Positions 1,265 to 64,000 of a stretch of 64,000 nucleotides of DNA are shown here, in pieces. The stretch covers positions 11,554,196-11,618,195 of the forward strand of contig CAIIXF020000004.1 in assembly GCA_903813345.2 (NCBI GenBank), read 5' to 3'. The notes below the pieces were generated by a model. The model did no database searches. It was not told where the DNA came from and saw nothing but the letters and a program-made list of their open reading frames with translations. The position numbers and the translations under genes are program-made. The DNA comes from Owenia fusiformis (taxonomy: Eukaryota; Annelida; Polychaeta; Sabellida; Oweniidae). Position 1 is the stretch's first letter; the number at the start of each line of letters is the position of its first letter.

Positions 1265-4200
1265 CTACTTCTGTTGATCTAAAAGTCTCCTAGACCTTCT
1301 CAGTTGAGGCACTTCTGCAGCTGTATCCTCATTAAGGAGCTTTTTGTTTCTGATCCCTTCTGGCAATTCTTTCAAATCTTCTCTATTTACAGTTTTCCTC
1401 AGTGAGTCTTCATTCTCAATTGTATATGTGTCTCCTTTCCTTTCAATCACTTTGTATACAGAATCTTCATAATAGTCTTGTATCTTGTTTCTTCCAAGTG
1501 TTCTCCTTCTTGTTAAGACTTTTCTTCCAACATCTATTTTATCTTCAATGATTGTTGGTTTCTTGTCATGTCTTTCTTTCCTTCGATCAGCATTTTGATT
1601 CATATTTTCTTCTGCATGAGCATAAGCTTCTTTGAACGTCTGCTTTTGTTTGGTTACCCAGTTATCTGCTTTATTTCCTTCAGACGACTCTTCTTCATTC
1701 TCCGAATCAAGTACTAGAGATAGTGGTAGTAATGCTTCTCGGCCAAACATCATGTAAAACGGTGAATAACCCGTGGAGCTATATGGGGTTATGTTGTAAG
1801 AATACACCAACTCCTTCAGGTATTCTGGCCATTTGTTCTTCTTCTTTGCTTCTAGTGACAACAGTAGATTGTGGAGGGTTCTGTTGAACCGTTCGCACTG
1901 ACCATTTCCTTGGGGATGGTACGGTGTGGTTCGTGACTTCTGAACATTGTATGTTTTACACAGACAGGCTACTATCTTGCTTTCAAATTTCCTTCCCTGG
2001 TCGCTGTGTAGTCGTTTGGGAATACCATAAACTAAAAACAGATCTTTGACAAGAACTTTTGACACTGTTTCAGCTGTTTGGTCCTTAGTTTCTTTGGCAA
2101 TTGTAAACTTTGTAAAGACATCAGTTATGATCAAAACGTTTTCCATTCCGTTGGTAGCTTTTCCAAAAGTGTAAAATCAATACAGACTAGGTCTAGTGGT
2201 GATTTTGCGGTTAATCGTCCCGTGGGAGTAATGATTTTGTGAAAGGGCATCTTGCCAAATACACATCGATTACATGTCTTGATATATTCACATATGTCTT
2301 GTTTCATTCCTGGCCAAAAGTAGCTATCACTAATCAGTTTATCAGTTCTTTCAACACCTTGGTGTCCTGCAAAGTCATGTCCCACTTTTAGAACAGTTGG
2401 AATAGCAACTTGATTGACATCTTTATCATTTGACTTCACCTTCCTATACAATATGTTATCAACTAGTCGGAGTTTATGTCTTTGTTTCTCCCATTTTCTT
2501 TGATGTTTTGTCATCTTTTTCAGTATCTTAGGTGTTGGAATAATGTTATGTTTTATGATTTCTTTGATGAGACTGATATCTTGATCATTGTCTTGTAATG
2601 TGGCTAGACCTTCCTTCGTAATAGTTGGGAAGACAGTTGTTTCTGTTGGAGTTATATCACTTTCTACTGTCAGAACATTTACTTCCTTCTGGTTAATTTC
2701 TGTAGACAGATCTGGAAGGTGTGTAGTGTTTGTGATCTCTGCGATAACACTCATAGCACTGACTTCGAAGTCATCATCCTCATCTTCATCTTCTGAACTG
2801 TGTTCTAGTCTGGAGAGTGCATCTGCTGCAGTGTTCTTTATTACTGGCTTGTACTTTATCTCAAAGTTGAAGCATGCTAAGTCAGACACCCAACGTTGCT
2901 CTAATGCTGGTAGTTTCTTCTTTCGCATGATATACATCAATGGGTTATTGTCTGTGAAAATCGTGAATTTTGATCCAAGTAGAAAATCTCTGAACTTTTC
3001 TGTAACAGACAATTTAAGTGCTAACAGCTCCAATTTTTTGGAAGAGTAGTTGTTCATATTTTTCTCGCCTCCTCTCAGTGATCAGCTGCCATATCCAATG
3101 ACTCTCATTTTTCCTTCTTGTTCTTGGAAAGTTCACATCCGAGTCCTGATGATGACGCATCTATCTCTAATACAAAAGGCTTGTTGTAGTCTGCGAAAGC
3201 AAGGACTGGTGTTGTAGACAGTTTTTCTTTAAGTGTAGCTTGTGCTTTTGTACAATCTTCTGTCCATAGCTTTTCAATATTCTCAGTCTTCTTTTTTGTT
3301 CTTTTCGTGACTTTTGTAACAAGGTTATGTAATGGTTGGGCAGTAGCTGCATAGTTCTTCACAAAACGTCTGTGGTATCCTGCCATTCCAAGAAATCTTC
3401 TGAGATCCTTCAGGGTCTTCGGCTGTTTCCAGTTCACTATCACCTTAATCTTTTCAGGATCAGACAGCTTCGAGGACACTTCGAAGTCATCATCCTCATC
3501 TTCATCTTCTGAACTGTGTTCTAGTCTGGAGAGTGCATCTGCTGCAGTGTTCTTTATTCCTGGCTTGTACTTTATCTCAAAGTTGAAGCATGCTAAGTCA
3601 GACACCCAACGTTGCTCTAATGCTGGTAGTTTCTTCTTTCGCATGATATACGTCAATGGGTTATTGTCTGTGAAAATCGTGAATTTTGATCCAAGTAGAA
3701 AATCTCTGAACTTTTCTGTAACAGACAATTTAAGTGCTAACAGCTCCAATTTTTTGGAAGAGTAGTTGTTCATATTTTTCTCGCCTCCTCTCAGTGATCA
3801 GCTGCCATATCCAATGACTCTCATTTTCCTTCTTGTTCTTGGAGAAGTTCACATCCGAGTCCTGATGATGACGCATCTATCTCTAATACAAAAGGCTTGT
3901 TGTAGTCTGCGAAAGCGAGGACTGGTGTTGTAGACAGTTTTTCTTTAAGTGTAGCTTGTGCTTGTGTACAATCTTCTGTCCATAGCTTTTCAATATTCTC
4001 AGTCTTCTTTTTTGTTCTTTTCGTGACTTTTGTAACAAGGTTATGTAATGGTTGGGCAGTAGCTGCATAGTTCTTCACAAAACGTCTGTGGTATCCTGCC
4101 ATTCCAAGAAATCTTCTGAGATCCTTCAGGGTCTTCGGCTGTTTCCAGTTCACTATCACCTTAATCTTTTCAGGATCAGGCTTTATTCCTTCTTTCGATA

Positions 4201-4861
4201 TCTGGTGACCAAGGTATGTTACAGTCTCTTTAAAGAAGTAACACTTTTTCAATTCAAGCTTCAAGTTGTAGCTGTGTAAAATTGAAAAGACATTCTCTAG
4301 CCTATGAATCATTTCTTCGATGGTAGAAGAGTATACTAATAAATCATCGAGATAGATGAGTAAGGTTTTGAAAATCTCATCTTTAAATGCCATGGTCATT
4401 AATCTTTGGTAAGTTGCAGGTGTGTTGCAGAGGCTGAATGGCATGCGTAAGTACTCAAAAGTGCCAAAAGGTGTGGTAAAAGATTTTTTGTGAATATCCT
4501 CCTGAGCTACCTTAACCTGGTGATAAGCGCTTTGAAGGTTCAATGAGCAGAACCACTTTGCATTCAGCAGTGCATCCATACTTTCCTGTATACGAGGGAG
4601 TGGGAAGACATCCTTCTTTGTGTTGTGATTCAGCTGTCTGTAATCAACGCATAGTCTAAGTGATTTATTTTTCTTTCTGACGAGAACAATAGGGCTAGCG
4701 AAGTTACTACTACTTGGGCGAATGATCTTTTTCTGTATAAGTGTGTCAATATGTTCTCGAAGTTCTTGAAAAACTGCAGGAGGCACTCTACGGAAAGGTT
4801 CATTCACAGCAAAATCATCTGGTGTAGGTATTTTGTGTTCAATCGCATCAGTATACCCCAA
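1265..4861 (-). pseudogene. pol remnants (RT, RNase H, integrase) of the gypsy fossil
   Basis: From high to low coordinate the minus strand encodes an RT palm with YLDDLLVYSS, the RT connection (FLGMAGYHRRF), RNase H (IFTDNNPL, ending DALSRL), the HHCC zinc-binding region of integrase (CNRCVFGK), and the integrase core (SDQGRKFE, TPYHPQGNGQCERFNR). These are standard Ty3/gypsy pol parts. Part of the RT/RNase H stretch is present twice in tandem. The region is treated as a fossil and is not expected to be expressed as a working protein. Confidence 0.9.
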
Positions 4862-5225
4862 ATCATTTTCGTCTGTTCCAAAGATTTTGTGGTATTTGTA
4901 AAATAACTTTGCCGTCTTCTTGCGTTCATCTGCTGTTCCAGGGAAATCTTCTAACAGTCTGTTTACTTCTTGGATAACATGCTGTGGGACTGTTGGCTCT
5001 TCTTCATCATTCTAAATTGGCTTTGATTTCAAATTCTCGTTTGTAACTATTTCTACTGTATTGTCCTGTATGCTGTACGAAACTTTACAACAGTTTACTT
5101 ACTAGTGGAGTAAGTCATGAGATAAAATTCATGGATTCCTTAAATTTATTTCCAATGGACATCCATGGTAAAATTTACAAAGGGAAATAATTGTAAAGAA
5201 CACCAGTTGTAAAATTTGCAAAGGG

Positions 5226-10828: not shown

Positions 10829-13696
10829 TTAACTTACTTCTTTTAGTTGTAGTTCCGGTTTTTTAGTTCGAATCTTCTGTAGTTCTTCACCCTTACGATT
10901 ATTGACTAGAGCTATTGTCAGTAGCTTGTAACACTCGTCAGTTCCATATTTTTTTGCACACTCTTTCAAAACTTTCTCTGCTTCGTTTGGTTCACCTCGC
11001 TGTATTAATGCATTTCCAAGAGTGATGACTACATCACTATTACTATTATCAATGACCCGTGGACCGAGATTCAAGAATTCTTTGCTTTTGTACGCATCAT
11101 TGATGTACATGTTTAAGAGAATCTGTAGAATAAGCTTGCTGTGATCAACAGGTTTTTCTTGTTTGAGATATTCGGCATTGGCTTTACCGAGGTACTCTTT
11201 AGCCTTCTCTCGTTTTCTAATTAGTAGATATGCCATCGCGTGGTTAAGAAGCGATGCATCATACAACGGTTGTGTTCCTACTGCTTTGAGCAATGCTTTT
11301 CCTTTCTGCTCTTCAGTTACGTCCGTTTCTGCACGTGCATGTCTCTGTTGCTCGATACTAGAAACTAGGGGAATAGCTGTCATGTAGTAGCGCAATACCA
11401 AATCCTCGATAAACTGTTTCGATTTCTCTTTATTTTCGCTCACGAATACGTCAGGAAACAGCTGTCCTTTGACCTCGTCCACTTGGCCATTATTCTCGGC
11501 GTAACACCTGAGTCTGAACTCTGTAGCTAATGCTAGGATCATCGTAAGGTGGTGTAGGTTATCATCGCTCAGGCCTTTCACTCCTTTTACATCCCATATA
11601 CAGGTTGTCTTGCTTCCCAGTAGATGAAGCAGGTTGTTGATAACCACACTAGGGAGACGATACAGCTCCTTCTTGACACTGAGTTCTATATCTGCTAGCA
11701 GGCGTACGTCAAACTTGGCATCATAGATCTTCTTAGTGCACGAATATTTCATCAAGTCGTCCTTGAACTCTTTCATTATTCCGGCCAAGATTTTATTCCG
11801 TTTCACCCCATCTTTTTTAAAGAGGTCTTTCATCTCATCTGCAACTGAATCTTCACCATATAGAATCTCAAAATCTCCCTTATATAAGTAAAGTACTTTG
11901 CTCAAATTTCTATTGGCCTCGAAGTACCTCATGAATGCTTTCTTAGTGTCTGTGAGTGAGAATTCATTTTGAGGATCTTCAAAATAAGGCGTTTTATTCG
12001 CATGTGGCATCAGTCCATCAAAGGACACCCCTTGCTTCACGGACACATGTGTTCGGTCATCGTAATACCAGTCCTTGAGAGAGTCAATGTGCATAGCAGG
12101 TAGAACTGTTTCACCAAGCATAAGTAGTTTGATGTGTACACACATAATGATATTCATTAATTGTACTTCATACTTGGGAACTATGCTTAAGTCATTTGTG
12201 TTTACGACAACTGCGAATTCTACGTCGGAAAATGGTGTTGTTTCCTTTCTCGAGAAGGATCCAAATGCTATAAAAGCAAAGTCATCATTGTGAAATTCAA
12301 ACATTTTTCTACTCTGGTTCACTAACGATTCTATGAACTTTTTAATCTCTCCGTGATTCCATTTTAAGATTTCGCTGACTTGTTCTATGTACTCTTTTTC
12401 CATTTTTTTGCGTGTCTCATCCAGATCAATGGGACATCCACTATGCTCTCTGTTTAAATTTCTAAGTTTAGTTTTCATGAATTTCCGTATTTGTCGCAGA
12501 GTATCTTTGTTGGTGTTATTATCTTTCTCAAACTGTAGAACTTTGTCATCTAATGTTGCCTTTGTACTTCCACTTAAGAATTCTCGCAAAGTAAGTTTCC
12601 TTTCTTGTTTTATTTTTTCAATTTCCTGTTTTTTAACATCATCTGTACATTCTTGAAGGTGAACTTCTGCACATTCATACAGAGCGATAGACTTCACATA
12701 CTCTAGTTTCCTCGCTGTAAGTTTAGCTCTTCTCCTGTGAATGTTACCAATATGACGCAATGCCATCACGTGCTCATTCGATTGTTCTTCCCTCTGCTTT
12801 TTCGAAACTGATTTTCTTTCTTCAAAGTTGTTTTGAATAATCTTCAGCTGTTTCAGTTTGCTCGTAATTTCATTTTCTTCTTGTTTAAGTTTGTTCAAGA
12901 TCTCTATGTGAAATTTCCAGTCTTTGCCTTCCTGTGTTTGACCCATAGGAAAGGTTACATATAAATCACCAGCTGTTTCAGTCCATTTTTGTACCAATTC
13001 ACCAGTGTCAGTGGCCATCTCTCTTTTATCAAATATATTCTCTGTATCTGTCGATGTATTTTCCATTTTTATCAAACAGTGTGTGTCGGTAGACATTTCT
13101 TTCCTCTCGAATAGAGCTTTTGTGTCTGTTGATTCATGGACTTTCTGTGGTAGAATAGGGGTGTTTGTTGATGTTTCTTTTCTTTCGAATAGAGCCTCTG
13201 TGTCTGTTGATGTGTGGACTTTCTGTGGTAGAACAGGGGTGTTTGTTGATGTTTCTTTTCTTTCAAATAGAGCTTCTGTGTCTGTTGATGTGTGGACTTT
13301 CTGTGGTAGTACAGGCGTGTTTGTTGATGTTTCTTTTCTTTCGAATAGAGCTTCTGTGTCTGTTGATTCATGGACTTTCTGTGGTAGAATAGGGGTGTTT
13401 TTTGATGTTTCTTTGCTAGCGAATAGGGCTTCTGTGTCAGTGGACATGTCTTTACTCTCAGGTAGAGCATTTGCTTTTGTTGATGTAATAAGGTAATTGC
13501 AGTAATCTAAAATCTTCCATCTGTGTCTTGATTCGATGACTGAATCTGGTTCATTTGTTATTTCTCTACGTGTCTCAGTTTCTCCTGTTGTTGTTGTTGT
13601 TGTAACATTGGCGTCTAATGCCATTCCATCATCATCCGGAGATATCAAGTGCTCTTCGGTGTCTCCATCTCCGAGGCAGCTGCGGATGTTCCCCAT
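10829..13696 (-). CDS. Nucleotidyltransferase-fold protein with ST[DN]T repeats and TPR-like helices, copy 1
   Basis: A 955-codon uninterrupted frame. Residues 1-8, MGNIRSCL, match an N-myristoylation signal with a nearby palmitoylatable Cys, which suggests membrane attachment. Residues 85-232 are 13-residue repeats alternating STDTEALFERKE and TSTNTPVLPQKVH. About 262-305 is a Lys/Glu coiled coil, and 306-350 looks like a TPR helix pair. Residues 479-493 hold GSFSRKETTPFSDVE, matching the GS(x)10DxE metal-binding signature of the DNA polymerase beta-like nucleotidyltransferase fold, closest in style to GlnD/DUF294 proteins; a third acid was not assigned. The C-terminal 180 or so residues look TPR-like. 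Substrate and product are unknown. In-frame GTAAGT just before the stop resembles a splice donor, so the last residues may be intron. Copy 2 lies at 61172-64000. An innate-immune or signalling role is inference only. Confidence 0.8.
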   Translation of the reverse strand: MGNIRSCLGDGDTEEHLISPDDDGMALDANVTTTTTTGETETRREITNEPDSVIESRHRWKILDYCNYLITSTKANALPESKDMSTDTEALFASKETSKNTPILPQKVHESTDTEALFERKETSTNTPVLPQKVHTSTDTEALFERKETSTNTPVLPQKVHTSTDTEALFERKETSTNTPILPQKVHESTDTKALFERKEMSTDTHCLIKMENTSTDTENIFDKREMATDTGELVQKWTETAGDLYVTFPMGQTQEGKDWKFHIEILNKLKQEENEITSKLKQLKIIQNNFEERKSVSKKQREEQSNEHVMALRHIGNIHRRRAKLTARKLEYVKSIALYECAEVHLQECTDDVKKQEIEKIKQERKLTLREFLSGSTKATLDDKVLQFEKDNNTNKDTLRQIRKFMKTKLRNLNREHSGCPIDLDETRKKMEKEYIEQVSEILKWNHGEIKKFIESLVNQSRKMFEFHNDDFAFIAFGSFSRKETTPFSDVEFAVVVNTNDLSIVPKYEVQLMNIIMCVHIKLLMLGETVLPAMHIDSLKDWYYDDRTHVSVKQGVSFDGLMPHANKTPYFEDPQNEFSLTDTKKAFMRYFEANRNLSKVLYLYKGDFEILYGEDSVADEMKDLFKKDGVKRNKILAGIMKEFKDDLMKYSCTKKIYDAKFDVRLLADIELSVKKELYRLPSVVINNLLHLLGSKTTCIWDVKGVKGLSDDNLHHLTMILALATEFRLRCYAENNGQVDEVKGQLFPDVFVSENKEKSKQFIEDLVLRYYMTAIPLVSSIEQQRHARAETDVTEEQKGKALLKAVGTQPLYDASLLNHAMAYLLIRKREKAKEYLGKANAEYLKQEKPVDHSKLILQILLNMYINDAYKSKEFLNLGPRVIDNSNSDVVITLGNALIQRGEPNEAEKVLKECAKKYGTDECYKLLTIALVNNRKGEELQKIRTKKPELQLKEVS
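13082..13444 (-). repeat. 78-bp coding minisatellite in copy 1
   Basis: About four and a half 78-bp units, each encoding two 13-residue modules built on S-T-D-T and S-T-N-T. The units are close to identical at DNA level, which points to recent expansion or homogenisation. Because the unit is a multiple of three and lacks stops in several frames, it also gives long spurious frames on both strands. The downstream modules (residues 201-232) are more diverged. Confidence 0.9.
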
Positions 13697-16153: not shown

Positions 16154-19009
16154 TCATGTGAATCTTTTTAGGAGGCTCCAACTGTCATTGTAGCTCTTTC
16201 CTTCCTTTGAAATTTGTACATCTTGCTTCACACTGTTCTTCCATCTTTGTAGGTCTGTTTTTTCTTGTGCTAGTTTGGTTTTATATATGTAGTATTTCAT
16301 CTTAAGGTAAAGTAGGTTTTCAGATTTTAGTAGTCTATTGTTGCCGAGAATGAAATCTTTATTGTTGGGATTCACCTCACATATATTAAAGCAGGACTGC
16401 TATAAAAGTTTAGTGTCGTTGCAATAGATGAATGCATGTTCAATTGAATCTTTATCTTGTTTACAAATGTCACACAGCGAGGATTGTTTTTTATGCATTT
16501 TAACTAATAGATTATTAAAGTAAAGCGCTCTGTGCAGCATTTTATATTGGAAGCACTGTAGTCTCACGTTGTTTGTGATTGTTTTTGTTAATAAGTACAC
16601 TTGTTTCCAGTTAATGTCAATGTTGTTATCCAATTTCTCTATCCATTTCGCCTGTGTCTTGTCTGGTTTACATTTCACTGACTTGGTAAATTGGTGGTAC
16701 ATGAAGCTATTCTGTGATCCACTGTCTAAATATCTCTCATAAAGATTTTGATTATGTGGATTTTCAACTTGTATATTTCGCTTCCATTCTTGTGGAATAC
16801 CTTGTATTATACCATGTAGGTATAAGAAATTATTTCCAGTTATATCATATTTTTGTTTTACTTGGTTGAAATTCATAAGTTCCCCATTGTCTCTGTATGA
16901 TGGGTGAGTTGTTCCATATTATCTCGTTTGCTGCATTTTCGATCTTTAACTCATTTTTGAAATTCACCTTTGACCATATTTTAAATGTCTCTTTCAAAGA
17001 GTTTAATCGTAACTCATTTTGAACTTTTCCGTCTAATTCTCTTATATTAAAATTCCAAATGTGTTCTGAATTAAATTTTCCAATATATATTTTCCATAAT
17101 TAAGCCCATTTATTATTAGGTTCTGTTTGTGTGAGTTTTGCGATCCATTTGATTTTTAGGTTTTCTATGTAGGATTTGAGATGTACCATTTCAGTCCACC
17201 TTCTTCTCTGTTTCCCATCATTGTACGTCGTGCTATCTTATCTTGTTTGTTGCTCCATATGAATTTATAGAAGCTTGACTCTATGTCTTGAATAAGGTCT
17301 TATTTTGGCATTGGTAGCACTGTTGCCATGTAAGTAATTTGAGAAAGAAGTAAAGATTTAACTAAGGTAATTTTTCCAAGTGGAGTAATGTATCTTCCTT
17401 CCCATGACTTAATTATGTCTTTAATTCTCTTTTTAGCTTTTGGGTAATTCAGGTCTGCATTGTAAATTTAATATTTAGTTCTCTACATGTTTGTTCTGTC
17501 TGTTGTTGTCCTTCTGGTTCTAAGCCTGTATCTCCAATAATACCGACATCTGTTTTGTTTTTGTTTATTTTTAAACCTGAAATTTCTCCAAATTTTTGGA
17601 ATAAATTTATTGCGTTTTTTACTGATTCTGTTGACCTAAGTAACAGTGTAGTGTCATCGGCGTATTGTGATATTTTTATTTCTGTGTCATCAGCTCGGAT
17701 TCCTTCTGTTTGTATATCTTGTCTTACTGCCTCTGTTAATATTTCAGCGCATAATATGAATAGGTATGGGCTCAGTGGGCACCCCTGACGTACTTCTCTT
17801 GAGACGTGAAAGTAGTCGCATGTGTAACCATTATTTATTACGGTGCTTACTGCATTTCTATAGAATGTCTGGACCCACTTACATATATCTGGGCCAAAAT
17901 TAAAGTACCTGAGAGTTTTTTGTATGAAGTCCCATTCAATGGTATGGTATCAAAAGCTTTTTCAAAGTCAATGAGCGTAATGATTCCCCATCTTTTATGT
18001 ATATTTAAATGTTCCATGCTGTCAATGATTAATCGTATATTTTCTCCAATGTGTCGGCCTTTAATAAAACCTGTTTGGTCCATCTTGATTATATTCTTTA
18101 AGTGCATCTTGATACTTTCTGCTTTAGCTCTTGTAGCGATTTTAAAGTCAATATTGAGGAGACTTATTGGTCGCCAATTTTTTAAGTCAAAATATCTTTA
18201 GCTTTCTTTGGAAGTAGAGATATGACAGCACGTCTTTGTTCTGTTGACATTTCGCCGTTTTGAAAAGAAAAGTTAAAGCTTTCTTTTATGAGATTTACAA
18301 TCACATTTTTGAAGTGTTTATAAAATTCACTTGTGAAGCCATCTGATCCTGGGGATTTATTATTTTTTAAAGCTTTAATCTGTTCCAAAACCTCTTCCTC
18401 TGTTATTTTGCCTTCGCATGACTGTTTTTCCCCTTCTGTTAATGTTGTAATAGTTGCCTCTCTTGGGAAGAAGATGTCCTTATGATTATCGATGTTGTGA
18501 CATTTTGTTGTATATAGTTGTTGGTAGAAGCGCTGCTGTTCGCGTGCGATGTCTTTCTGCTCCTTTACTATTTCTCCTTTATTATTTCTTAGTTGAGTAA
18601 TAGTACGGTTGTCAAAATTTCTCTTTTCTAGCTTCAAGAAGTAGTTTGTTTGTTTTTCACCATGTTCTATCCACCTTGCTTTTGATCTTATGATTATCCC
18701 TTTTGCTCTCCTTTCATTTAATTCATCCAGTTCTTCCCTAAGTTGTTCACTTTCTTGGATTAATTGTTGTTTTGTATCATCATTTGCTGTTAATACTCGT
18801 GTTTCTATATTCTGTATGTTTCTGATGAGTTCTTTTATTCTCTTATTTCTGTTCCTGTTCATTGTTGTCGTATATTCCATTGTTTTTATTCTTATTTTGA
18901 ATTTAGTCAGTTCCCATAGCTGATTGGGATTTAACTCCAGCTCTTCAGTCCTGACTTTATTTATTTCACTTTTGATAAGTTCGGTGTATTTATCGTCTTT
19001 AAGTATGCT
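16154..19009 (-). pseudogene. LINE-B ORF2, RT and C-terminal part
   Basis: From 19009 downward: linker and fingers (RWIEHGEKQTNYFLKLEK, then NNKSPGSDGFTSEFYKHF), then RT blocks with FIKGRHIGENIRL, LIDFEKAFDT, RQGCPLSPYLF at about 17785-17750 and QYADDTTLLL at about 17665-17640. The C-terminal knuckle CDICKQDKDSIEHAFIYC lies near 16480-16430. Several frame breaks between 18180 and 16380 make it a pseudogene. Its ORF continues upstream at 25746 beyond the LTR element. Confidence 0.8.
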
Positions 19010-19591: not shown

Positions 19592-22500
19592 TTACAGTCT
19601 GGATAAAGCATCTGCACAACCATTAAGTTTGCCAGATCTGTGCACTACTTTGAAATCATACTGCTGTAAGTTAAGTATCCATCTTGTAAGCCTCTGGTTA
19701 TTGTTGTGCATTTCATTCAGCCATTTTAGTGGATTGTGATCAGTAACTACAACAAATTTTCTTCCTAGTAGATAATATCTCAAGTAATTGATGGCCCATA
19801 CAATCGCCAGACATTCTTTCTCTATCACTGCATAGTTTTTCTCCCTTGGAAGTAACTTGCGACTAAGATACATGATTGGATGTTCACCATCCTTGAAATT
19901 CTGGCTCAATACTCCAGAGATTCCTATATCAGATGCATCTGTGATCACAAGAAACTGTTTCGTGAAGTCTGGGCTCTTAAGGATTGGTTCAGAACACAAA
20001 GCCTCCTTCAACGTCTCTACTGCAGTTTGTTCTTTATTTCCCCATGGTATTTTCACTGCTACAGATTTCTTTGTTAACTCTGTCAGTGGAAAGGCTATGT
20101 CAGCATACTTTGGAATGAATTTCCGAAAGTATCCCGTCATTCCTAAGAATGTTCTCAGGTTCTTCTTAGTGTGTGGTTTCTCAAATCTCTGAATTAACTC
20201 TGTCTTCTCTGAGCTTGGTCTGACTATACCACCTCCAACTCTGTGTCCTAGATATTCTGCTTCCTGATAGGCAAATTTACATTTAGATGGTTTTGCAGTT
20301 AAATTGTGTTTTCTTAACCTTTCTAGTATAAGTCTGATGTCACAAAGGTGTGCTTCAAAGCTGCTACTGAAGATCACAAGATCATCGAAATAAGCATCAG
20401 AAAAGGTTTCTGCTCCTTCTAACATCTTGTCCATTGCTCTCTGGAATGTTGCTGGTGCTCCATGTAATCCAAATGGCATTCGTTTAAACTGAAATGTTCC
20501 GAAAGGAGTTAAAACTGATGTCTTCTCTTTGGAATCTTCACTCAGAGGAATTTGCCAAAATCCTCGGCATAAATCAATGACTGTAATGAATACAGCTGTT
20601 GCTAGCCCATCTAGAATTTCATCTATCCGTGGCATTGGGTAGGCGTCAAACTCTGTTACCTTATTCAGGTCTCTAAAATCGACACAGTCTCGTAGCTCAC
20701 CATTCTTCTTCGGTACAAAGACAAAGTTGGCTCCCCATTCACTTACAGATGGCTCCATTATACCTTTGGAAACCATTTTGTTTACTTTCTCTTTCATTAG
20801 CTCAACATATGCTTTTGGAAACCTTCTAAGCTTTTGTCTGACTGGTTTTGAATCTTTAGTGTTGATATGGTGCACAATTATGTCTGTTAGCCCAGGCTCA
20901 TCTGACAATACATCTTGGTATTCTTGAAGTAATGTTTCAACTCGTCTCTTCTGCTCTCTTGATATGTTAGGTGAAATATTGTATTTAACTTCTTCATTCT
21001 CTTGTACTGTTGTTGGCCATTGTATTGGCATAAAATCCTCGTCATCATCCTCTTCTTGTATCTCCTCTTGAATAGTTTCTGTAGTGAAGCAACAGAAGTC
21101 ATCTGGACTTGTGTACCGTTTCAACAGGTTCACATGGTACGTTTTTACCTTGTTTCCAATTTGAACATCATAATTCACTTTGTTACACCTTTTCACAATC
21201 TTAAATGGTCCTTGCCATCTTGCTTGCAGCTTCATATTACTTGAAGGCAATAACAGTAATACGTTATTTCCTGGATGAAACTCTATGTCTCGTGATTTCT
21301 CATCGTAATACCTTTTCTGCGTGTGTTTTGCTTCTGCGACATTCTTCTTCACAATCTCTCTAGTATCCATTACTCTGTCTCTCATCTGAGTCACATACTC
21401 GATAACATTTGTGTTTGCTTCTGTGTTTGGTTCCCATTTCTCAGCTAGTATATCTATCGGTCCCCTTACTGCTCTTCCATATAGCAGTTCAAACGGAGAA
21501 AATCCAGTTGTCTCATGTGGAACTTCACGATAGGCAAACAGTAAATATGGCAAATATACATCCCAATTCTCTGGTTTATCTGCTGTCAGCTTTTTGATCA
21601 TTTTAACTAAAACTCCATTATATCTCTCAGTCTGTCCATTTGTCTGCTGATGGTATGGAGTTGTTTTTATTCCTTTTATTCCTATCATGTTGTACACCTC
21701 CTGCATTAGATTTGACAGAAAATTTGTGCCTTGGTCAGATAAAATTTCTTTTGGGACTCCTACTCTACTAAACTGCACAATTAACTCTTCCGCTACCTTC
21801 TTGGAATCAGTAACTTTCATGGGCACCGCTTCAGGGTATTTTGTTCCATAATCTGTTGTTACTAATATGTATTTGTTCCCTCTCTTTGATCTCTCTAATG
21901 GACCTACTATGTCCATTCCAATAACACTAAATGGTTCTGTGATAATTGGCAGTGGTATCATCTGTGCTCTGTTGGAATTCATCTTTCGTGATGTCTTTTG
22001 GCAGATATCACAACTGTTGCAATATGCTTTCACATCTCTATGGATTCCAGGCCAAAACATCTTCTTCATGATTCTCAATGTTGTTTTCTTTATCCCAAGG
22101 TGTCCTGAGATAGGAATGCTGTGAGCTAATTCCAAGGTTTTCTTTCTACATTTTTGTGGTAGTACAATCTGTTCCATGATTTCCCCATTTTGATTTTTGA
22201 TTCTTCTAACAATCAGGTTTTCTCGCTTTGCAAAATATGGTGTGGCTTGTTCTTCTTCAGGTATCATTATAACAGATTTTCTAATATGGGTAAGTGTATG
22301 ATCTGTTTCTTGCATCTTTATCAACTCTTCTCGGCTGATATCATCTATGTTTGCATCTGTCTCATCAACTTTACACATGTTCTTTCTTTGATATCTCTTC
22401 TCTCTTCTTGTTGGCTTGTGTTTTATTTGTGTTGGTGGTTTAAACAGAGTTTCGTCAAAGTGAAATGGTAGTTTCTCATCTCCGCATTCACTGCTATTTG

Positions 22501-24388
22501 TACGGTTTTCATTGTCAACTTGTATCAGCTTTGCATCAGACTGCTCATCCTTCTCTAGATCAGACCTTTCTTCTTCAGCCTGCATTTTCTTCTGATTTCT
22601 AGTGGTAGCAAATGCCCTTTTAGTTTTGTATATATATCTGTCCATCTTCTCTTGATCCAGTTTGGATAAGATATCTTGCCCAATCAGTACAGAAGCAGGA
22701 AGTGTGTCAGAAACAGCTGCCTTTATTTTGTATATTTCATCTTCTATGTTGATCTCTACAACAGCAGTTGGATAGGATTGTCTATCTCCATGAACACAAG
22801 TCATCTCAACTGTTTCGTCATGTGTAACTGAATCATCTTGAATCAGGTCTTTATTGACAATAGTTTTGAAGCTTCCTGTGTCAAGTATCATCTCCACATC
22901 TTCTTTCTCATTCAACTTGGCTAAAACTGTTCCATCTTTCCTTGATTTATATTGTGAAAATATGTCTTTAGGTAAAGAACACAAAAATGCTGGTTTTCCC
23001 GATCCTAAATAACATTTCTCTTTCACGTGCCCATATCTATTGCATTTTTCACAGTGTAGAGATTTATCCACACGGCATTCTTCCGTTTTATGGTTTCGCA
23101 ATCCGCAATTATTACACTTGGGTCTACCATCTGACGTATCTGGTAATTTTCTCTGCCCGATCTTGAAATCTGAAGAACACTCAATTTCTTTATGTCCAGG
23201 TTGGCGACATTTTCGGCAAATAATGTCTTGAGGGCAATCCTTCGAGACATGACCTTTTTCATGGCAGTTGAAGCACTCTCCTGAATTCATGCTTGGTTGT
23301 CTCCAGTTAGATGAATCAGCACCACTAAATCTTCTGTTACTATTTGACGGCTTCCATCTTTCATTTTTATTCCAGTATACAGCATCCGATTTTCTTGCCT
23401 CTAGAAAGTTATCAGCAAACTTTATAACTTCATCTGTGTTACTGGCATCGTTTTCTTTGACCCACGTCTGTACTTCTGCTGGCAGAGTAGTAACTAGCTG
23501 CTCTTTGATTAAAACATCACTCATCTCCTCAACTGTTGTAACACCTTTCATCCATTTCTTGAAAACATCTCGAAGTCTGATAGTGAACGGTTGTATTCCT
23601 TCTCCATCTTCTCGTTTGAGGTTTCTAAATCGCTTTCTATATGTTTCTGCGTTAATGGCATAGCGCTTTAAAATTGCCTCTTTGACGATATCATAGTCAC
23701 TTGCATTATCTTGATCTACACTTGCATATGCTTCTTGTGCTTTCCCAGTAAGGCTTGCTCCCAGTTTTAGGGTCCAAAATTCCTTAGGCCATTTGCACAT
23801 TGTTGCAGTTCTTTCGAAGATTGTGAGGAAATTTTCAATGTCTTCATTATCTCTTAATCTAGGTATAAACGGATATTTTGGCTTGTGTTTTTCTTCTTTA
23901 TCTTCTTTTCTTTCTTTTTGTCGAAGTTTACGTTCTTCTTCAATCTCCCTTCTTCTTAATTCTTCTTGGTATCTCCTTTCATCCTCAATGTCTATCCTTC
24001 TTTGTTCCTCAATTCTTTTCCATTCTTCTTTTTCAGCTTGGATTTCTTCTCTTCTAAGTTGTTCCTGAATCTTTCTTTCTTCTTTTTCAGCTTGTATTTC
24101 AGCTAGTCTTATCTTCTCTTGTCTTAAGAACATCTCTCTGTCTTGTTCGGTCTTTTTCATCATTGAAGTCATCATAAACATCATCTGTTGCTGCATCTGT
24201 ATTGGGTTGAATTGTAACATCGTAGGATCTGGCTCAATAGAGTGTTTTTCTTCAACTGGTTCATCAGATGCTTCTTCATATTCCTCTTCTTTCTGCTTCT
24301 TTTTCTCTTTATCATCCTCCATTTCTTTTGTTGGATTTTCCTCTGGTAATCCTTTATGATACTTTGTGTTCCTTGTATCAACTGGCAT
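19592..24388 (-). CDS. Gag-Pol polyprotein of the Gmr1-like element
   Basis: 1,598 residues in one frame. Residues 85-165 form a Glu/Arg-rich coiled coil. About 180-335 is a retrotransposon gag (capsid-like) domain. Four CCHC knuckles lie at 372-385, 391-404, 425-438 and 446-459. A retropepsin DTG is at 503-505. Next comes the integrase: the HHCC region, then a core with MDIVGPL, SDQGTNF and a TNGQTERYN block, and a C-terminal region. RT follows (CVDFRDLN, PFGLHGAPATFQ, YFDDLVIFS), then RNase H (VITDASDIGISG) to the end (GCADALSRL). Integrase therefore precedes RT, the reverse of ordinary gypsy elements. The element looks whole and is annotated as a mobile element, not a host gene. Confidence 0.9.
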   Translation of the reverse strand: MPVDTRNTKYHKGLPEENPTKEMEDDKEKKKQKEEEYEEASDEPVEEKHSIEPDPTMLQFNPIQMQQQMMFMMTSMMKKTEQDREMFLRQEKIRLAEIQAEKEERKIQEQLRREEIQAEKEEWKRIEEQRRIDIEDERRYQEELRRREIEEERKLRQKERKEDKEEKHKPKYPFIPRLRDNEDIENFLTIFERTATMCKWPKEFWTLKLGASLTGKAQEAYASVDQDNASDYDIVKEAILKRYAINAETYRKRFRNLKREDGEGIQPFTIRLRDVFKKWMKGVTTVEEMSDVLIKEQLVTTLPAEVQTWVKENDASNTDEVIKFADNFLEARKSDAVYWNKNERWKPSNSNRRFSGADSSNWRQPSMNSGECFNCHEKGHVSKDCPQDIICRKCRQPGHKEIECSSDFKIGQRKLPDTSDGRPKCNNCGLRNHKTEECRVDKSLHCEKCNRYGHVKEKCYLGSGKPAFLCSLPKDIFSQYKSRKDGTVLAKLNEKEDVEMILDTGSFKTIVNKDLIQDDSVTHDETVEMTCVHGDRQSYPTAVVEINIEDEIYKIKAAVSDTLPASVLIGQDILSKLDQEKMDRYIYKTKRAFATTRNQKKMQAEEERSDLEKDEQSDAKLIQVDNENRTNSSECGDEKLPFHFDETLFKPPTQIKHKPTRREKRYQRKNMCKVDETDANIDDISREELIKMQETDHTLTHIRKSVIMIPEEEQATPYFAKRENLIVRRIKNQNGEIMEQIVLPQKCRKKTLELAHSIPISGHLGIKKTTLRIMKKMFWPGIHRDVKAYCNSCDICQKTSRKMNSNRAQMIPLPIITEPFSVIGMDIVGPLERSKRGNKYILVTTDYGTKYPEAVPMKVTDSKKVAEELIVQFSRVGVPKEILSDQGTNFLSNLMQEVYNMIGIKGIKTTPYHQQTNGQTERYNGVLVKMIKKLTADKPENWDVYLPYLLFAYREVPHETTGFSPFELLYGRAVRGPIDILAEKWEPNTEANTNVIEYVTQMRDRVMDTREIVKKNVAEAKHTQKRYYDEKSRDIEFHPGNNVLLLLPSSNMKLQARWQGPFKIVKRCNKVNYDVQIGNKVKTYHVNLLKRYTSPDDFCCFTTETIQEEIQEEDDDEDFMPIQWPTTVQENEEVKYNISPNISREQKRRVETLLQEYQDVLSDEPGLTDIIVHHINTKDSKPVRQKLRRFPKAYVELMKEKVNKMVSKGIMEPSVSEWGANFVFVPKKNGELRDCVDFRDLNKVTEFDAYPMPRIDEILDGLATAVFITVIDLCRGFWQIPLSEDSKEKTSVLTPFGTFQFKRMPFGLHGAPATFQRAMDKMLEGAETFSDAYFDDLVIFSSSFEAHLCDIRLILERLRKHNLTAKPSKCKFAYQEAEYLGHRVGGGIVRPSSEKTELIQRFEKPHTKKNLRTFLGMTGYFRKFIPKYADIAFPLTELTKKSVAVKIPWGNKEQTAVETLKEALCSEPILKSPDFTKQFLVITDASDIGISGVLSQNFKDGEHPIMYLSRKLLPREKNYAVIEKECLAIVWAINYLRYYLLGRKFVVVTDHNPLKWLNEMHNNNQRLTRWILNLQQYDFKVVHRSGKLNGCADALSRL

Positions 24389-24570
24389 GAGTAATTGTTG
24401 TATAATCGCGTTTTAATTTTTACAACAACATAAATCCATTGAAATACGGGGAAAAGATTGTTTAAGTATAATGTACTGTATAGAAATAAATGTGTAAATT
24501 GTTTGGTCCTAATAGGCCTATGTACTTTTATAACATGTTGTTATATGAAGTATTGAAAATGTTATTATCT

Positions 24571-50938: not shown

Positions 50939-51844
50939 CTACGGCTTATATTTCACGACAAATGCTTCACATCGTGCTAAAAGATGACGAGACTCTGTTC
51001 CTATCAGCAGGTTGTCCTCTGTGTCCATTGCGAGAGACCATGGCTCATTCAACTCATCACTTTCTGACAGTACGTGTCTGATGAAGTTGCCATCAGGTGA
51101 GAGTAACTGCACTCTGTTGTCATAATTGTCAGCTACTAGGATATTCCCAAATGTGTCTACACAAACACCACGGGGATGATTCAGTGCATTCTTACCCTCA
51201 CCACTGTATGTGAACACTTCCTCACCACGATTGTCTACACATCTGATGTTATTAGTGCCATAGTTAGATATTATAATGTGATCCTGTTTAGTCACTGCTA
51301 TGAATGTGTAGTAATCCGTGTCGAACAATCCAGATGGTGTGGTGTGTTCTACCTTCCCAGACTGCCAGTTGATGAACACTAAGGACCCATTGGTGCCATC
51401 CGCAATCACCATCTGACCAATACTATTCACTGCAATAGCTTTTGGTTTGATTGTATCTTGTAATGGTATGTCTCGCTTGTGGTCACCTGATGTGTCAAAC
51501 ACTTGCACCATCCAAGTGTTATCATCTCTCACACACAGTACTGCTACACCCTGACCATCAGGGGTTGATATCACTCGATATGGATTACCAGTTGTGGTCA
51601 GTGTTTTCATCTTTTCGAGTTGTTTGTTGCAGATGATTGTTTTATTGTTGCCATACTTTGGCACCACAATCATCACTATACCAGAAGTACCTGCAGCAGC
51701 CAGGGAGGGAATACCAATGTAGCCAAAAAACTGTTTTCTTTGTAATGTCTTTGGTTTGTATTTCCGCAATACTTCCATCTGCTGCTGCTGTTGCTGCTGG
51801 TGCTGCCACTGCGTTATAACCGCATCTACATCATCCTTTAAATC
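50939..51844 (-). CDS. Last coding exon of an NHL beta-propeller (TRIM-like) protein
   Basis: The minus strand has a clear acceptor (TTGATTTTGCAG) ending at 51845, then about 300 codons to a TAG. Upstream frame residues MILILQ are therefore intronic. The start is a Gln-rich, probably coiled-coil end (DDVDAVITQW, then a Q run), followed by an NHL-type propeller. Strand signatures include PKAIAVNSIGQMVIAD, HPRGVCVDTFGNILVADNYDN and RVQLLSPDGNFIRHV, with a final blade EPWSLAMDTEDNLLIGT. This is the usual C-terminal half of TRIM2/3/56/71-like proteins, whose RING, B-box and coiled-coil exons should lie to the right but were not found before the window ends. A ligase role is therefore inferred from family only. 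Orthology to a named TRIM is not claimed. Confidence 0.8.
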   Translation of the reverse strand, partial: DLKDDVDAVITQWQHQQQQQQQMEVLRKYKPKTLQRKQFFGYIGIPSLAAAGTSGIVMIVVPKYGNNKTIICNKQLEKMKTLTTTGNPYRVISTPDGQGVAVLCVRDDNTWMVQVFDTSGDHKRDIPLQDTIKPKAIAVNSIGQMVIADGTNGSLVFINWQSGKVEHTTPSGLFDTDYYTFIAVTKQDHIIISNYGTNNIRCVDNRGEEVFTYSGEGKNALNHPRGVCVDTFGNILVADNYDNRVQLLSPDGNFIRHVLSESDELNEPWSLAMDTEDNLLIGTESRHLLARCEAFVVKYKP

Positions 51845-52344
51845 CTGCAAAATCAATATCAAACAATCTGAAGCAAATATGTGTAATATCTGTTTGTGTA
51901 ATGTTATGTGTTATGTTTATTATATGTTATCAAAATTGCCATTGACTACTCATAACTTGCTATTTTAAATGAGATCAATGTACTTGTGTTACAAAACACC
52001 AGTCATAATAATCCGTTCCAGCAAATATTTATTGATTCTGTATTGTTATTTGATTTTATGCATTCTGTACTGTTAACAATTAAATGAAAAATAGCATAAG
52101 ATTACATAGAAATATTTATCGTTATTGAAATATACAGGAGTTTCGTTTTTTTCGTGCAATGAAGTGTTGCATTGCAAGATCTGGCCTGAAATCTCAAACA
52201 GGCTGGCTAAACAACTTATCTGTAAGACGCGTCTTGATCTTGAACTTTTTTCGGATCTATTATTGATTTAAAAATAATAGCATTCCCTTGATTATTGCCG
52301 TCCCCCCAAAAGGTATAAATAGTATGTATACCCTATGTATAGTA
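51845..52344. other. Intron-like sequence upstream of the NHL exon
   Basis: AT-rich. Ends in a good polypyrimidine/AG acceptor for the NHL exon. No other exon recognised. Confidence 0.4.
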
Positions 52345-61171: not shown

Positions 61172-64000
61172 TTAACTCACTTCTCTTAGTTGTAGTTCCG
61201 GTTTTTCAGTAAGAATCTTCTGTAGTTCTTCACCCTTACCATTTTTAACTAGAGCTGTTGTCAGCAGCTTGTAACACTCGTCAGTTCCATATTTGTTTGC
61301 ACACTCTTTCAATACTTTCTCTGCTTCATTTGGTTCACCACGCTGTATTAATGCATTTCCCAGAGTGTTGACTACATCACTGTTACTTGTATCAATGACA
61401 CGTGGACCGAGGTGGTTCAAGAATTCTTTGCTTTTCTTCGCATCCTTGATGTACATGTTTAAGAGAATCTGTAGAATTAGCTTGTTGTGATCCACGGGAT
61501 TATTTCGCTTGAGATATTCCGTATTGGCTTGACCGAGGTACTCTTTTGCCTTCTTTTGTTTTCTAATCAGTAGATATGCCATTGCGTGGTTAAGAAGCGA
61601 TGCATCATACAAGGGCTGTGTTCCTACTGCTTTGAGCAATGCCTCTCCTTTCTGCTCTTCAGTAACGCCCGTTTCCGCTCGTATGTGACTATGTTGCTCG
61701 ATACTGGAAACTAAGGGAATAGCTGTCATGTAGTAGCGCAATACCAAATCCTCGATGAACTGTTCCGATTTCCCTTTTTCGCTCAAGAATACATCAGGAA
61801 ACAACTGTCCTTTGACCTCGTCCACTTGGCCATTATTCTCTGCGTAACACCTGAGTCTGAACTCGGTAGCTAACGTAAGGATCATTGTAAGGTTGTGTAG
61901 GTTATCATCGCTCAGGCCTTTCACTCCTTTTACATCCCATATACAGGTTGTCTTGCTTCCCAGTAGATGAAGCAGGTTGTTGATAACCACACTAGGGAGA
62001 CGGTACAGCTCCTTCTTGACACTTAGTTCTTTATCTGATAGCAGGTGTTCCTCAAACTTAGCGTCATATATCTTCTTTGTACAGGAGTATTTCTTCAAGT
62101 CATTTTTGAACTCTTTCCTTATTGCAGAAATGATTTCCTTCCGTCTCGCACCATTCCTTTTGAAGATATTCTTCATCTCATTTGCGACAGAATCGTCACC
62201 GTATAAAGTCTCGAAATCGCCTTTGTACAGGAACAACTTTGAGTCTAAATCATGGTTGCTGTGGAAGAAATTTACAAATGCTTTTTTGGTGTCAGTTAGA
62301 GAGAAGTCGACCGTTTCATCTGTAAAGTAAGGTGTCTTGTTTGCTCTCGACATCAATCCATCAAATGACATGCCTTGTTTTGTAGAAACATGTTGCCGGT
62401 CATCATAATACCATCCTTCGAGTGATCCAATGTCCATTGCAGGGAGAACTGTTTCTCCGAGCGTCAATAGTTTGATGTGTACAAGCATGGCTAGATTAAG
62501 TGCATTCTTCTTTTCTTCTGTACTTATATTTGGATCATTTGAATCTTGAACGATAGCAAATTCAACATCGGAAAATGGTGTTGTCTCCTTCCTCGAAAAT
62601 GATCCAAATGCTATAAAGGCAAAGCTTTTGTCATCGATTCCAAGAAAACGTGCGCAATGGGTGACTAAATGTGATATGAATGTCTTAATTTCACCGTGAA
62701 TCCATTTAAACAGTGTAGCGATTTCCTCAATTCGTTTCTTTTCCTGGTCCCTGCTTGAATTAACAAAACACGACCCCTCATATTTAGTGTCCAATGTTCT
62801 CAGTTTAGCTTTCAGTTCGTTCCTTATTTTAGTCAATGTAACCTTGATTCCATTGTCAAATCGTCCATACTCTTTCATCTCTTGTTTTGATGTCTCCCGA
62901 TGTGTACAACTAGAGATAAAAACCTCGAGCACATCGTTTCTCTGACGTTTGCTAAGTTCGTATTGGTCTTCGATATCATCTTCATGACATTCTTCACAAT
63001 GCACCATGGCGCATTCATAGATGGCAATAGACTTGACGTACTCCATTTTCTCATTGGTTATATCTCCAATCTCTTTATAGATATGGCCAAGTTCCTTTAG
63101 CAACTTTACGTGTTCTTTAGATAACTTTTCCCTTTCCCTTTTCTCTTCCTCTGAAACCTTCATTCTTTTCTCTATAGATTTATCTAGAATTTGATGTTGA
63201 TGTTGAAGTCGTTTCAATTCTTTAGCTACTTTCATTTCTTCATTTCTAAGGTCCTCTAGTAGCTTAATCTTTTGTAAATCCGTGGTGGTTTCTTCATTCT
63301 TTGCTACTAGTATAACTTCCGTATTTGTCGATTTATGATCCATTTTAGTTAGAGCTTCTGTGTCTGTTGATGTATGAGCTTTCTGTGGTAGAACAGGCGT
63401 GTTTGTTGATGTTTCTTTTCTATCGAATAGAGCGTCTGTGTCTGTTGATGTATGGACTTTCTGTGGTAGTACAGGCGTGTTTGTTGATGTTTCTTTTCTT
63501 TCGAATAGAGCTTTTGTGTCTGTTGATGTATGAGCTTTCTTTGGTAGAACAGGGGTGTTTGTTGATGTTTCTTTTCTTTCAAATAGAGCTTCTGTGTCTG
63601 TTGATGTATGGACTTTCTGTGGTAGAACTGGGGTGTTTGTTGATGTTTCTTTTCTTTCGAATAGAGCTTTTGTGTCTGTTGATGTATGAGCTTTCTTTGG
63701 TAGAACAGGGGTGTTTGTTGATGTTTCTTTTCTATCGAATAGAGCTTTTGTGTCTGTTGATGTATGAGCTTTCTTTGGTAGAACAGGGGTGTTTGTTGAT
63801 GTTTCTTTTCTTTCAAATAGAGCTTCTGTGTCTGTTGATGTATGGACTTTCTGTGGTAGTACAGGCGTGTTTGTTGATGTTTCTTTTCTATCGAATAGAG
63901 CTTTTGTGTCTGTTGATGCATGAGCTTTCTTTGGTAGAACAGGGGTGTTTGTTGATGTTTCTTTTCTTTCGAATAGAGCGTCTGTGTCTGTTGATGTATG
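61172..64000 (-). CDS. Nucleotidyltransferase-fold protein with ST[DN]T repeats, copy 2 (5' end off-window)
   Basis: The frame is open from the window edge to the TAA at 61172; the Met at 63343 is internal, since the frame continues through the repeats above it without a stop. Architecture equals copy 1: 78-bp-coded repeats, a Glu/Lys coiled coil (about 63270-63100), TPR-like helices (LGHIYKEIGDITNEKMEYVK), the GSFSRKETTPFSDVE active-site signature (about 62605-62560) and a TPR-like C-terminus. The C-terminal third is almost identical to copy 1, while the coiled coil and NTase flanks are clearly diverged. It ends with REVS-stop, and GTGAGT overlaps the stop as a possible splice donor. The true start and any acylation signal lie to the right of the window. 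Function unknown. Confidence 0.8.
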   Translation of the reverse strand, partial: HTSTDTDALFERKETSTNTPVLPKKAHASTDTKALFDRKETSTNTPVLPQKVHTSTDTEALFERKETSTNTPVLPKKAHTSTDTKALFDRKETSTNTPVLPKKAHTSTDTKALFERKETSTNTPVLPQKVHTSTDTEALFERKETSTNTPVLPKKAHTSTDTKALFERKETSTNTPVLPQKVHTSTDTDALFDRKETSTNTPVLPQKAHTSTDTEALTKMDHKSTNTEVILVAKNEETTTDLQKIKLLEDLRNEEMKVAKELKRLQHQHQILDKSIEKRMKVSEEEKREREKLSKEHVKLLKELGHIYKEIGDITNEKMEYVKSIAIYECAMVHCEECHEDDIEDQYELSKRQRNDVLEVFISSCTHRETSKQEMKEYGRFDNGIKVTLTKIRNELKAKLRTLDTKYEGSCFVNSSRDQEKKRIEEIATLFKWIHGEIKTFISHLVTHCARFLGIDDKSFAFIAFGSFSRKETTPFSDVEFAIVQDSNDPNISTEEKKNALNLAMLVHIKLLTLGETVLPAMDIGSLEGWYYDDRQHVSTKQGMSFDGLMSRANKTPYFTDETVDFSLTDTKKAFVNFFHSNHDLDSKLFLYKGDFETLYGDDSVANEMKNIFKRNGARRKEIISAIRKEFKNDLKKYSCTKKIYDAKFEEHLLSDKELSVKKELYRLPSVVINNLLHLLGSKTTCIWDVKGVKGLSDDNLHNLTMILTLATEFRLRCYAENNGQVDEVKGQLFPDVFLSEKGKSEQFIEDLVLRYYMTAIPLVSSIEQHSHIRAETGVTEEQKGEALLKAVGTQPLYDASLLNHAMAYLLIRKQKKAKEYLGQANTEYLKRNNPVDHNKLILQILLNMYIKDAKKSKEFLNHLGPRVIDTSNSDVVNTLGNALIQRGEPNEAEKVLKECANKYGTDECYKLLTTALVKNGKGEELQKILTEKPELQLREVS
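63356..64000 (-). repeat. 78-bp coding minisatellite in copy 2
   Basis: More than eight 78-bp units to the window edge, against about four and a half in copy 1. Units encode STDT(E/K/D)ALF(E/D)RKE and TSTNTPVLP(Q/K)K(V/A)H. Variants alternate in blocks (TATGAGC/TTTCTTTGG versus TATGGAC/TTTCTGTGG), suggesting higher-order duplication of pairs of units. Other frames are also open and should be ignored. Confidence 0.9.

Follow-up and report, generated by a model that had tools for sequence, protein, structure and literature searches.

Gene A, its flanks and its repeat-bearing relatives

The window analyzed here, a 64,000-nucleotide stretch of the Owenia fusiformis genome, carries on its minus strand a whole single-exon frame of 955 codons with no stop (gene A, positions 10829 to 13696; all features below lie on the same strand). 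The first-pass annotation had described this frame and its MGNIRSCL start (13673 to 13696), and both are present. The ATG lies three codons past an in-frame TAA, with A at −3 and G at +4, and opens a start that fits an N-myristoylation signal. The consensus for N-myristoylation is MG-x-x-x-S, which the start of gene A matches in a sequence pattern test.

The 13-residue repeats reported earlier amount to 12 units covering residues 84 to 239 (12980 to 13447), arranged as a 26-residue double unit of 78 bp. An exact ST[DN]T occurs in 10 of the 12 units, and at the DNA level the array is a 78-bp tandem unit in 4.4 to 5 copies. The only PHROGs match for gene A was weak and fell within these repeats. 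A speculative idea is that the T[DN]T repeats may mimic the TQT motifs of dynein light chain partners.

Helical regions stand on both sides of the catalytic core. The N-terminal flank (residues 256 to 436; 12389 to 12931) may be a coiled coil or TPR-like, with long helices in a low-confidence model; in this first fold of residues 256 to 955 (5 rows; pLDDT 48, pTM 0.42), its helix blocks had pLDDT values of 45 to 86. Judged by eye only, relatives look TPR-like in this flank. Behind the core, alignments place a helical domain (residues about 640 to 790; 11327 to 11779) collinear with DUF294_C, a HEPN-like substrate domain. Two arginines are conserved here, R680 in 42 of 42 rows and R728 in 41 of 41, and at E up to 1 DUF294_C itself was matched by 4 of 41 family members (best 1.9e-6), not by the window protein. 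In the available text of a HEPN survey, DUF294_C is grouped with GlnD/GlnE and DrrA as NTase-HEPN fusions with protein-modifying activity (PMC3710099). The C-terminal region (residues 791 to 955; 10832 to 11326) is TPR-like, with weak matches to TPR_19 (4.4e-4) and TPR_8 (8.3e-4), both under the Pfam cut-offs. The TPR-like flanks proposed at first pass are supported, with TPR matches very strong in several relatives (e.g., L041, L047, and L050) and weak in gene A.

The predicted paralogue was also found. The 3′ end of gene B is at 61172, and the gene extends past the window edge at 64000, so that the window holds its 3′ part (61172 to 64000); B is 65% identical to gene A over 907 residues. Beyond the window, B continues with more repeats, and one in-frame stop in the repeat array there puts its MGN start into a frame of its own, 344 residues long. 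Between A and B, silent sites have diverged by 0.28 to 0.46 in the 3′ half, whereas in the 5′ half the value exceeds 1.5 or is saturated, a contrast that we read as a probable trace of gene conversion.

Among the best-scored candidates of a protein search of the genome, the only genes with matched ST[DN]T repeats are four on contig C4, three within about 107 kb and the fourth 1.3 Mb off, so the repeats look like an ornament of one subfamily that lies outside the family layout. Counts of ST-type motifs vary from gene to gene: 10 in A, 16 in L002, 5 in L003, and 20 plus 49 in the two pieces of B. An MGN(I/N/D)xS start is present in all four genes (Cys7 in one of them), and a scan of 43 frames found a single further frame, L039, that fits the myristoylation signal by pattern. 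The acylated start suggested earlier is therefore likely, and this subfamily is probably N-myristoylated.

The nucleotidyltransferase core

Profiles and alignment with chlamydial homologues place an NTase domain (DUF294 / NTP_transf_2) at residues about 437 to 600 (11897 to 12388). Its catalytic motif, GSFSRKETTPFSDVE, spans residues 479 to 493 (12218 to 12262) and contains D491 and E493, with the key residues kept in 43 of 43 aligned rows. This alignment comprises 41 animal and 2 Neochlamydia sequences; frame Bup and the duplicate L004 were left out, and neo3 is empty there. Invariant across all 43 rows are G479, S480, R483, E485, S490, D491, E493, G528, T530, D546, D560, and K568. D546 (12059 to 12061) is a candidate third carboxylate, and the stretch from D560 to K568 (11993 to 12019) supplies a second candidate together with an invariant Lys.

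The core set for profile searches numbered 41 (37 animal, 4 chlamydial), without the short or broken L006, L019, L020, and L045. The pattern GS..R.E.[TS]..SD.E occurs in 41 of 41 cores; when translated in six frames, the window shows it at two places, one in gene A and one in paralogue B. The DUF294-type motif GS..R.E....SD.[DE], likewise in 41 of 41, has the form seen in aligned Paenibacillus proteins. Pfam DUF294 (PF03445) matches every core at E up to 1 (best, 2.2e-9), which with the motif supports the polymerase-beta-type core claimed at first pass. At the same threshold, NTP_transf_2 matches 23 of 41, Polbeta 21 of 41, and SidM_N, named for the N-terminal domain of DrrA, 13 of 41 (best, 7.1e-7), within a total of 33 Pfam families of which many are weak and unrelated. 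NCBIfam models for GlnD match up to 34 of 41 cores and a model for MntA matches 29, all weakly. The window protein scores lower: DUF294 reaches 16.8 bits on the whole protein and 17.9 on the core alone, with a cut-off of 21, and the core alone narrowly passes for NTP_transf_2 (21.3 versus 21 bits). The whole protein falls under the cut-offs for DUF294, NTP_transf_2, and TPR, and neither SidM_N nor DUF294_C is among its own Pfam matches at E up to 1.

A family profile compared with the PDB matched nine chains within an E value of 1, every one of them named as an NTase, with DrrA at the top (6yx5_B, E of 0.0014 for the chain and 0.025 for the best stretch; 3nku_A, 0.0042). A single-sequence search of the PDB gave two weak matches that we took for chance. 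The NTase fold that the first-pass annotation had proposed checking by structure prediction received partial backing. A second fold (residues 429 to 791, 22 rows) remained low in confidence (pLDDT 51, pTM 0.56), and Foldseek returned 35 matches at E up to 10, of which 24 are NTases or NTase complexes by title and none reaches 0.001 or better. For this low-confidence model the top match was DrrA-Rab8a (E 4.9e-3, prob 1.00, TMq 0.44, 11% identity), followed by the N-terminal domain of Escherichia coli glutamine synthetase adenylyltransferase (1v4a; E 0.28, prob 0.95); the other 11 matches, the fourth-ranked one among them, are unrelated chains such as axonemal and ribosomal ones. Because the model is low in confidence, we treat these matches as support rather than proof, and with poor models and no fold match at E 0.001, the third carboxylate and the target site are not placed. 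On the evidence of motif and profiles, the NTase sits on the DUF294/GlnD/GlnE/DrrA side of the polymerase-beta superfamily.

This placement bears on two other enzyme classes. One is an NTase of the aminoglycoside or TUT type, with a small molecule or RNA as its substrate: the weak profile matches include lincosamide, kanamycin, and aminoglycoside NTases, and the weak fold matches include ANT, TUT7, Cid1, and CutA. We nevertheless consider such an activity unlikely: these enzymes rank below DrrA in both searches and below the glutamine synthetase adenylyltransferase domain in the fold search, and the TPRs, like the DUF294_C-like domain, speak for partners that are proteins.

A second-messenger synthase of the cGAS-like receptor (cGLR) or CD-NTase kind, with the TPRs as sensor, is a quite improbable reading of the same core. 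cGLRs belong to the same superfamily, and the accessible text on them reports that some carry TPRs, that some animal genomes show a cGLR radiation, and that their motif is h[QT]GS [X8-20] [DE]h[DE]h [X50-90] h[DE]h (PMC9980059). If the [QT] before GS is dropped, 17 of 41 cores fit; the full motif, with h taken from our own list of hydrophobic residues, is found in 0 of 41. Mab-21 is absent from the 12 Pfam families of the window protein and from the matches listed for the 41 members, which cover 25 of their 33 families; the 17 PADLOC families, several of them candidate codes only, include no model named for a CBASS cyclase; and cGAS and OAS chains are missing from the 35 fold matches. The first-pass annotation had left the enzyme class between a second-messenger synthase and a GlnD-type protein modifier, and it is the latter that these comparisons favor.

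A large animal family with chlamydial relatives

The window is part of contig C4 (32 Mb) of a 498-Mb genome in 525 contigs, and gene A lies among Gypsy and LINE-like remains. Related sequences occupy at least 77 places on 18 contigs, including all twelve of C1 to C12. A protein search of the genome gave 55 matches, of which 41 were counted as places with an NTase core, while the other 14 were stretches of repeats or additional parts of genes already counted. A DUF294 search gave 53 places above its cut-off (4 of 14 control genomes also match), with gene B among them and gene A not. The two sets share 17 places, hence the total of 77; both counts are lower bounds. Within this total, 36 places are known solely from the DUF294 profile match and six are on small contigs that could represent alternative copies; the L007 and L008 cores are identical.

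Outside animals, a plasmid search found matches in a single source, Neochlamydia sp. S13, at 11 places, with an E value of 6e-14 between the window NTase core and pS13 proteins. The pS13 genes examined carry a TPR-protein annotation, and from their layout we read the products as NEX2 proteins. The available text on that family describes a large expansion with DUF294 in mid-protein in most members and C-terminal TPRs (Domman et al. 2014, PMC4209131). The same text gives an N-terminal F-box in the majority, an OTU domain in ten, a dN/dS of 0.29, predicted secretion for only two members, and a type III secretion signal for the members tested in a surrogate assay (PMC4209131). Alignments of ten animal relatives (L032, L034, L041, L043, L044, and L046 to L050) with either or both of two pS13 proteins exceed 900 columns, a length to which the TPRs contribute. 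Profile comparison of 19 window-type with 4 chlamydial cores gave 99.9% (E 7e-35) over 305 columns, the chlamydial cores versus Paenibacillus gave 98% over 225 columns, and window-type cores versus Paenibacillus gave 90.6% over only 57 columns. By these alignments, the closest named relatives are the NEX2 TPR-DUF294 proteins of Neochlamydia. Strictly speaking, the earlier suggestion of an undescribed family is not supported: the core is DUF294-like, and the Neochlamydia NEX2 family has this layout, with DUF294 in the middle and TPRs behind.

A pattern-limited scan of GTDB-based contigs gave 40 loci, only two of them long (Parachlamydiaceae); the remaining loci were short matches of the DUF294 type, found in Paenibacillus, one Bacillus, and Corynebacterium. 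A search started from a Neochlamydia core gave matches at 1e-12 or better in 20 of 232 Chlamydiota genomes. A phage or virus origin was set aside, with phages lacking a match and two scans of viral_contigs giving no confirmed relative.

The tree comprised 58 rows (40 animal, 13 chlamydial, and 5 Paenibacillus), without L045 and L095 and with five of 17 outgroup rows used. All 40 animal rows formed one group (98/97) beside three chlamydial rows (join, 88/77), and the chlamydial rows require two changes. The program warned of long branches and of odd composition in the outgroup. This topology points to a probable single transfer between the animal lineage and a Parachlamydia-like bacterium; the bacterium appears the more likely source, a direction judged from one animal genome and a distant outgroup under long-branch warnings. 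The amoeba-dwelling, Chlamydia-like bacteria that hold the relatives probably inject such proteins into their hosts.

Selection on gene A was estimated over 688 to 698 codons. Its dN/dS is 0.30 versus L002, 0.21 versus L003, and 0.28 versus B, and eight further pairs range from 0.10 to 0.47, with silent sites saturated in one. Gene A is under purifying selection. By segment, comparing A with L003 gives a dN/dS of 0.05 for the motif stretch and 0.25 for the N-terminal flank; the motif-stretch values are 0.23 versus L002 and 0.20 versus B, the lowest segment in neither. An expectation that the NTase-motif stretch always has the lowest dN/dS thus holds versus L003 and fails versus L002 and B, and dN itself is lowest in the motif stretch versus L002 and L003 but not versus B.

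These results weigh against bacterial contamination or a decaying copy in place of a working animal gene. Chlamydial homology, a single large exon, and the in-frame stop in the B repeats could be read that way, but the 32-Mb contig, the surrounding transposon remains, the spread over 18 contigs, and the purifying selection on gene A make it highly implausible. It is also distinctly unlikely that the protein is a catalytically dead scaffold in which only TPR binding was kept. The 22-row group that includes gene A is on a long branch (2.19 changes per column) and the window protein falls under the DUF294 cut-off, as a dead enzyme might, yet all 43 aligned rows retain the motif carboxylates, and the low dN in the motif stretch versus L002 and L003, though not versus B, is at odds with lost catalysis. 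Homology and codon comparisons together mark gene A as a genuine gene under selection, one member of a large animal family that has the chlamydial NEX2 proteins as relatives.

Proposed protein nucleotidylation and comparison with known systems

The product of gene A is fairly probably a protein nucleotidyltransferase that works inside the cell and belongs to the GlnD/GlnE/DrrA/DUF294 type, and a TPR-guided AMPylase or UMPylase is the most likely reading of its sequence. D491 and E493, with D546 or D560, would form the binding site for metal and for a nucleoside triphosphate. The helical domain and TPRs would present a target protein, and a nucleotide monophosphate would be moved onto one of its side chains. 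GlnD uses UMP. By analogy with GlnE, DrrA, and MntA, AMP is the most likely donation here and UMP a possible one. In the four-gene subfamily, the N-myristoylated start would probably tether the enzyme to membranes, with the ST[DN]T repeats acting as a long, multivalent linker of variable length. After transfer, the family would have expanded to its at least 77 places.

A wider proposal is tentative: animals may hold a third class of protein AMPylase/UMPylase in addition to Fic and SelO. This GlnE/DrrA-type enzyme, equipped with TPR arrays, would have been exchanged with Chlamydia-like bacteria, expanded in number, and acquired a membrane-tethered branch, and it would modify host or invader proteins (e.g., small GTPases) in intracellular defense. 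If so, this third class would be added by an animal family with intact catalytic residues whose nearest counterparts are DrrA, GlnE, and a chlamydial effector family, and an animal gene expansion would be linked to bacterial effectors.

In their available text, PMC4209131 and PMC3710099 give no enzyme activity for DUF294 or NEX2 and describe no animal TPR-DUF294 family, nor does such a family appear in the titles and abstract openings of further literature. The accessible parts of two animal genome papers describe TPRs with CHAT or NACHT, and the words nucleotidyltransferase and uridylyltransferase are absent from them. Such animal proteins presumably stand in databases under automatic names, e.g., protein-PII uridylyltransferase N-terminal domain-containing protein.

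GlnD has the motif form R.E..P.SD after G, and it has DxD. Gene A resembles GlnE/GlnD in R.E..P.SD after G, and GlnD models match the family weakly, but gene A has DxE in place of the GlnD DxD, and the HD and ACT domains of that comparison are not found in it by Pfam at E up to 1. Paenibacillus DUF294-type proteins share the collinear NTase and helical domain with VK...Y, whereas their measured frames are only 365 to 415 residues long. The N-terminal adenylyltransferase of DrrA/SidM is the best PDB match both by profile and by the low-confidence fold, despite low identity to gene A. According to the text available to us, AMPylases of the GlnE/DrrA kind carry the motif G-X11-[DE]-X-[DE] and modify proteins (PMC8097203), as does MntA (PMC7641770); gene A has this motif, with eleven residues between G479 and D491. 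NEX2 proteins have a homologous NTase core, DUF294 in the middle, TPRs behind it, and a large expansion. Gene A differs from them in its N-myristoylation-type start, its ST[DN]T repeats, its only weak TPRs, and, by Pfam at E up to 1, the absence of the F-box that most NEX2 proteins carry.

Silent-site divergence between genes A and B

Segment-wise comparison of gene A with its paralogue, gene B, gave silent-site change (dS) of 0.28 to 0.46 across the 3' halves (10832-12388 versus 61175-62767), whereas the 5' halves were much less alike at silent sites, with dS above 1.5 or saturated. Because dS is far lower in the 3' than in the 5' halves, the sequences suggest gene conversion between A and B.

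Repeat array of gene B

At L051, a place on contig CAIIXF020000004.1 upstream of paralogue B, one in-frame stop interrupts the gene B repeat array, separating a 344-residue MGN frame from a 1368-residue frame. This interruption means either that the copy is broken or that the difference lies in the assembly or between alleles.

Retroelements and an NHL-repeat frame

LINE-like remains with a zf-RVT match (16400-16876, minus strand) lie upstream of gene A. Also on the minus strand, a Gypsy-like element (19592-24412) carries a SCAN-domain match, protease, reverse transcriptase (RT), RNase H, and integrase in one 1606-residue frame, and a second retroelement (1265-5011) has four separate frames, for RT, RNase H, H2C2, and integrase core. 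A 323-residue frame (50939-51910, minus strand) has an NHL-repeat match.
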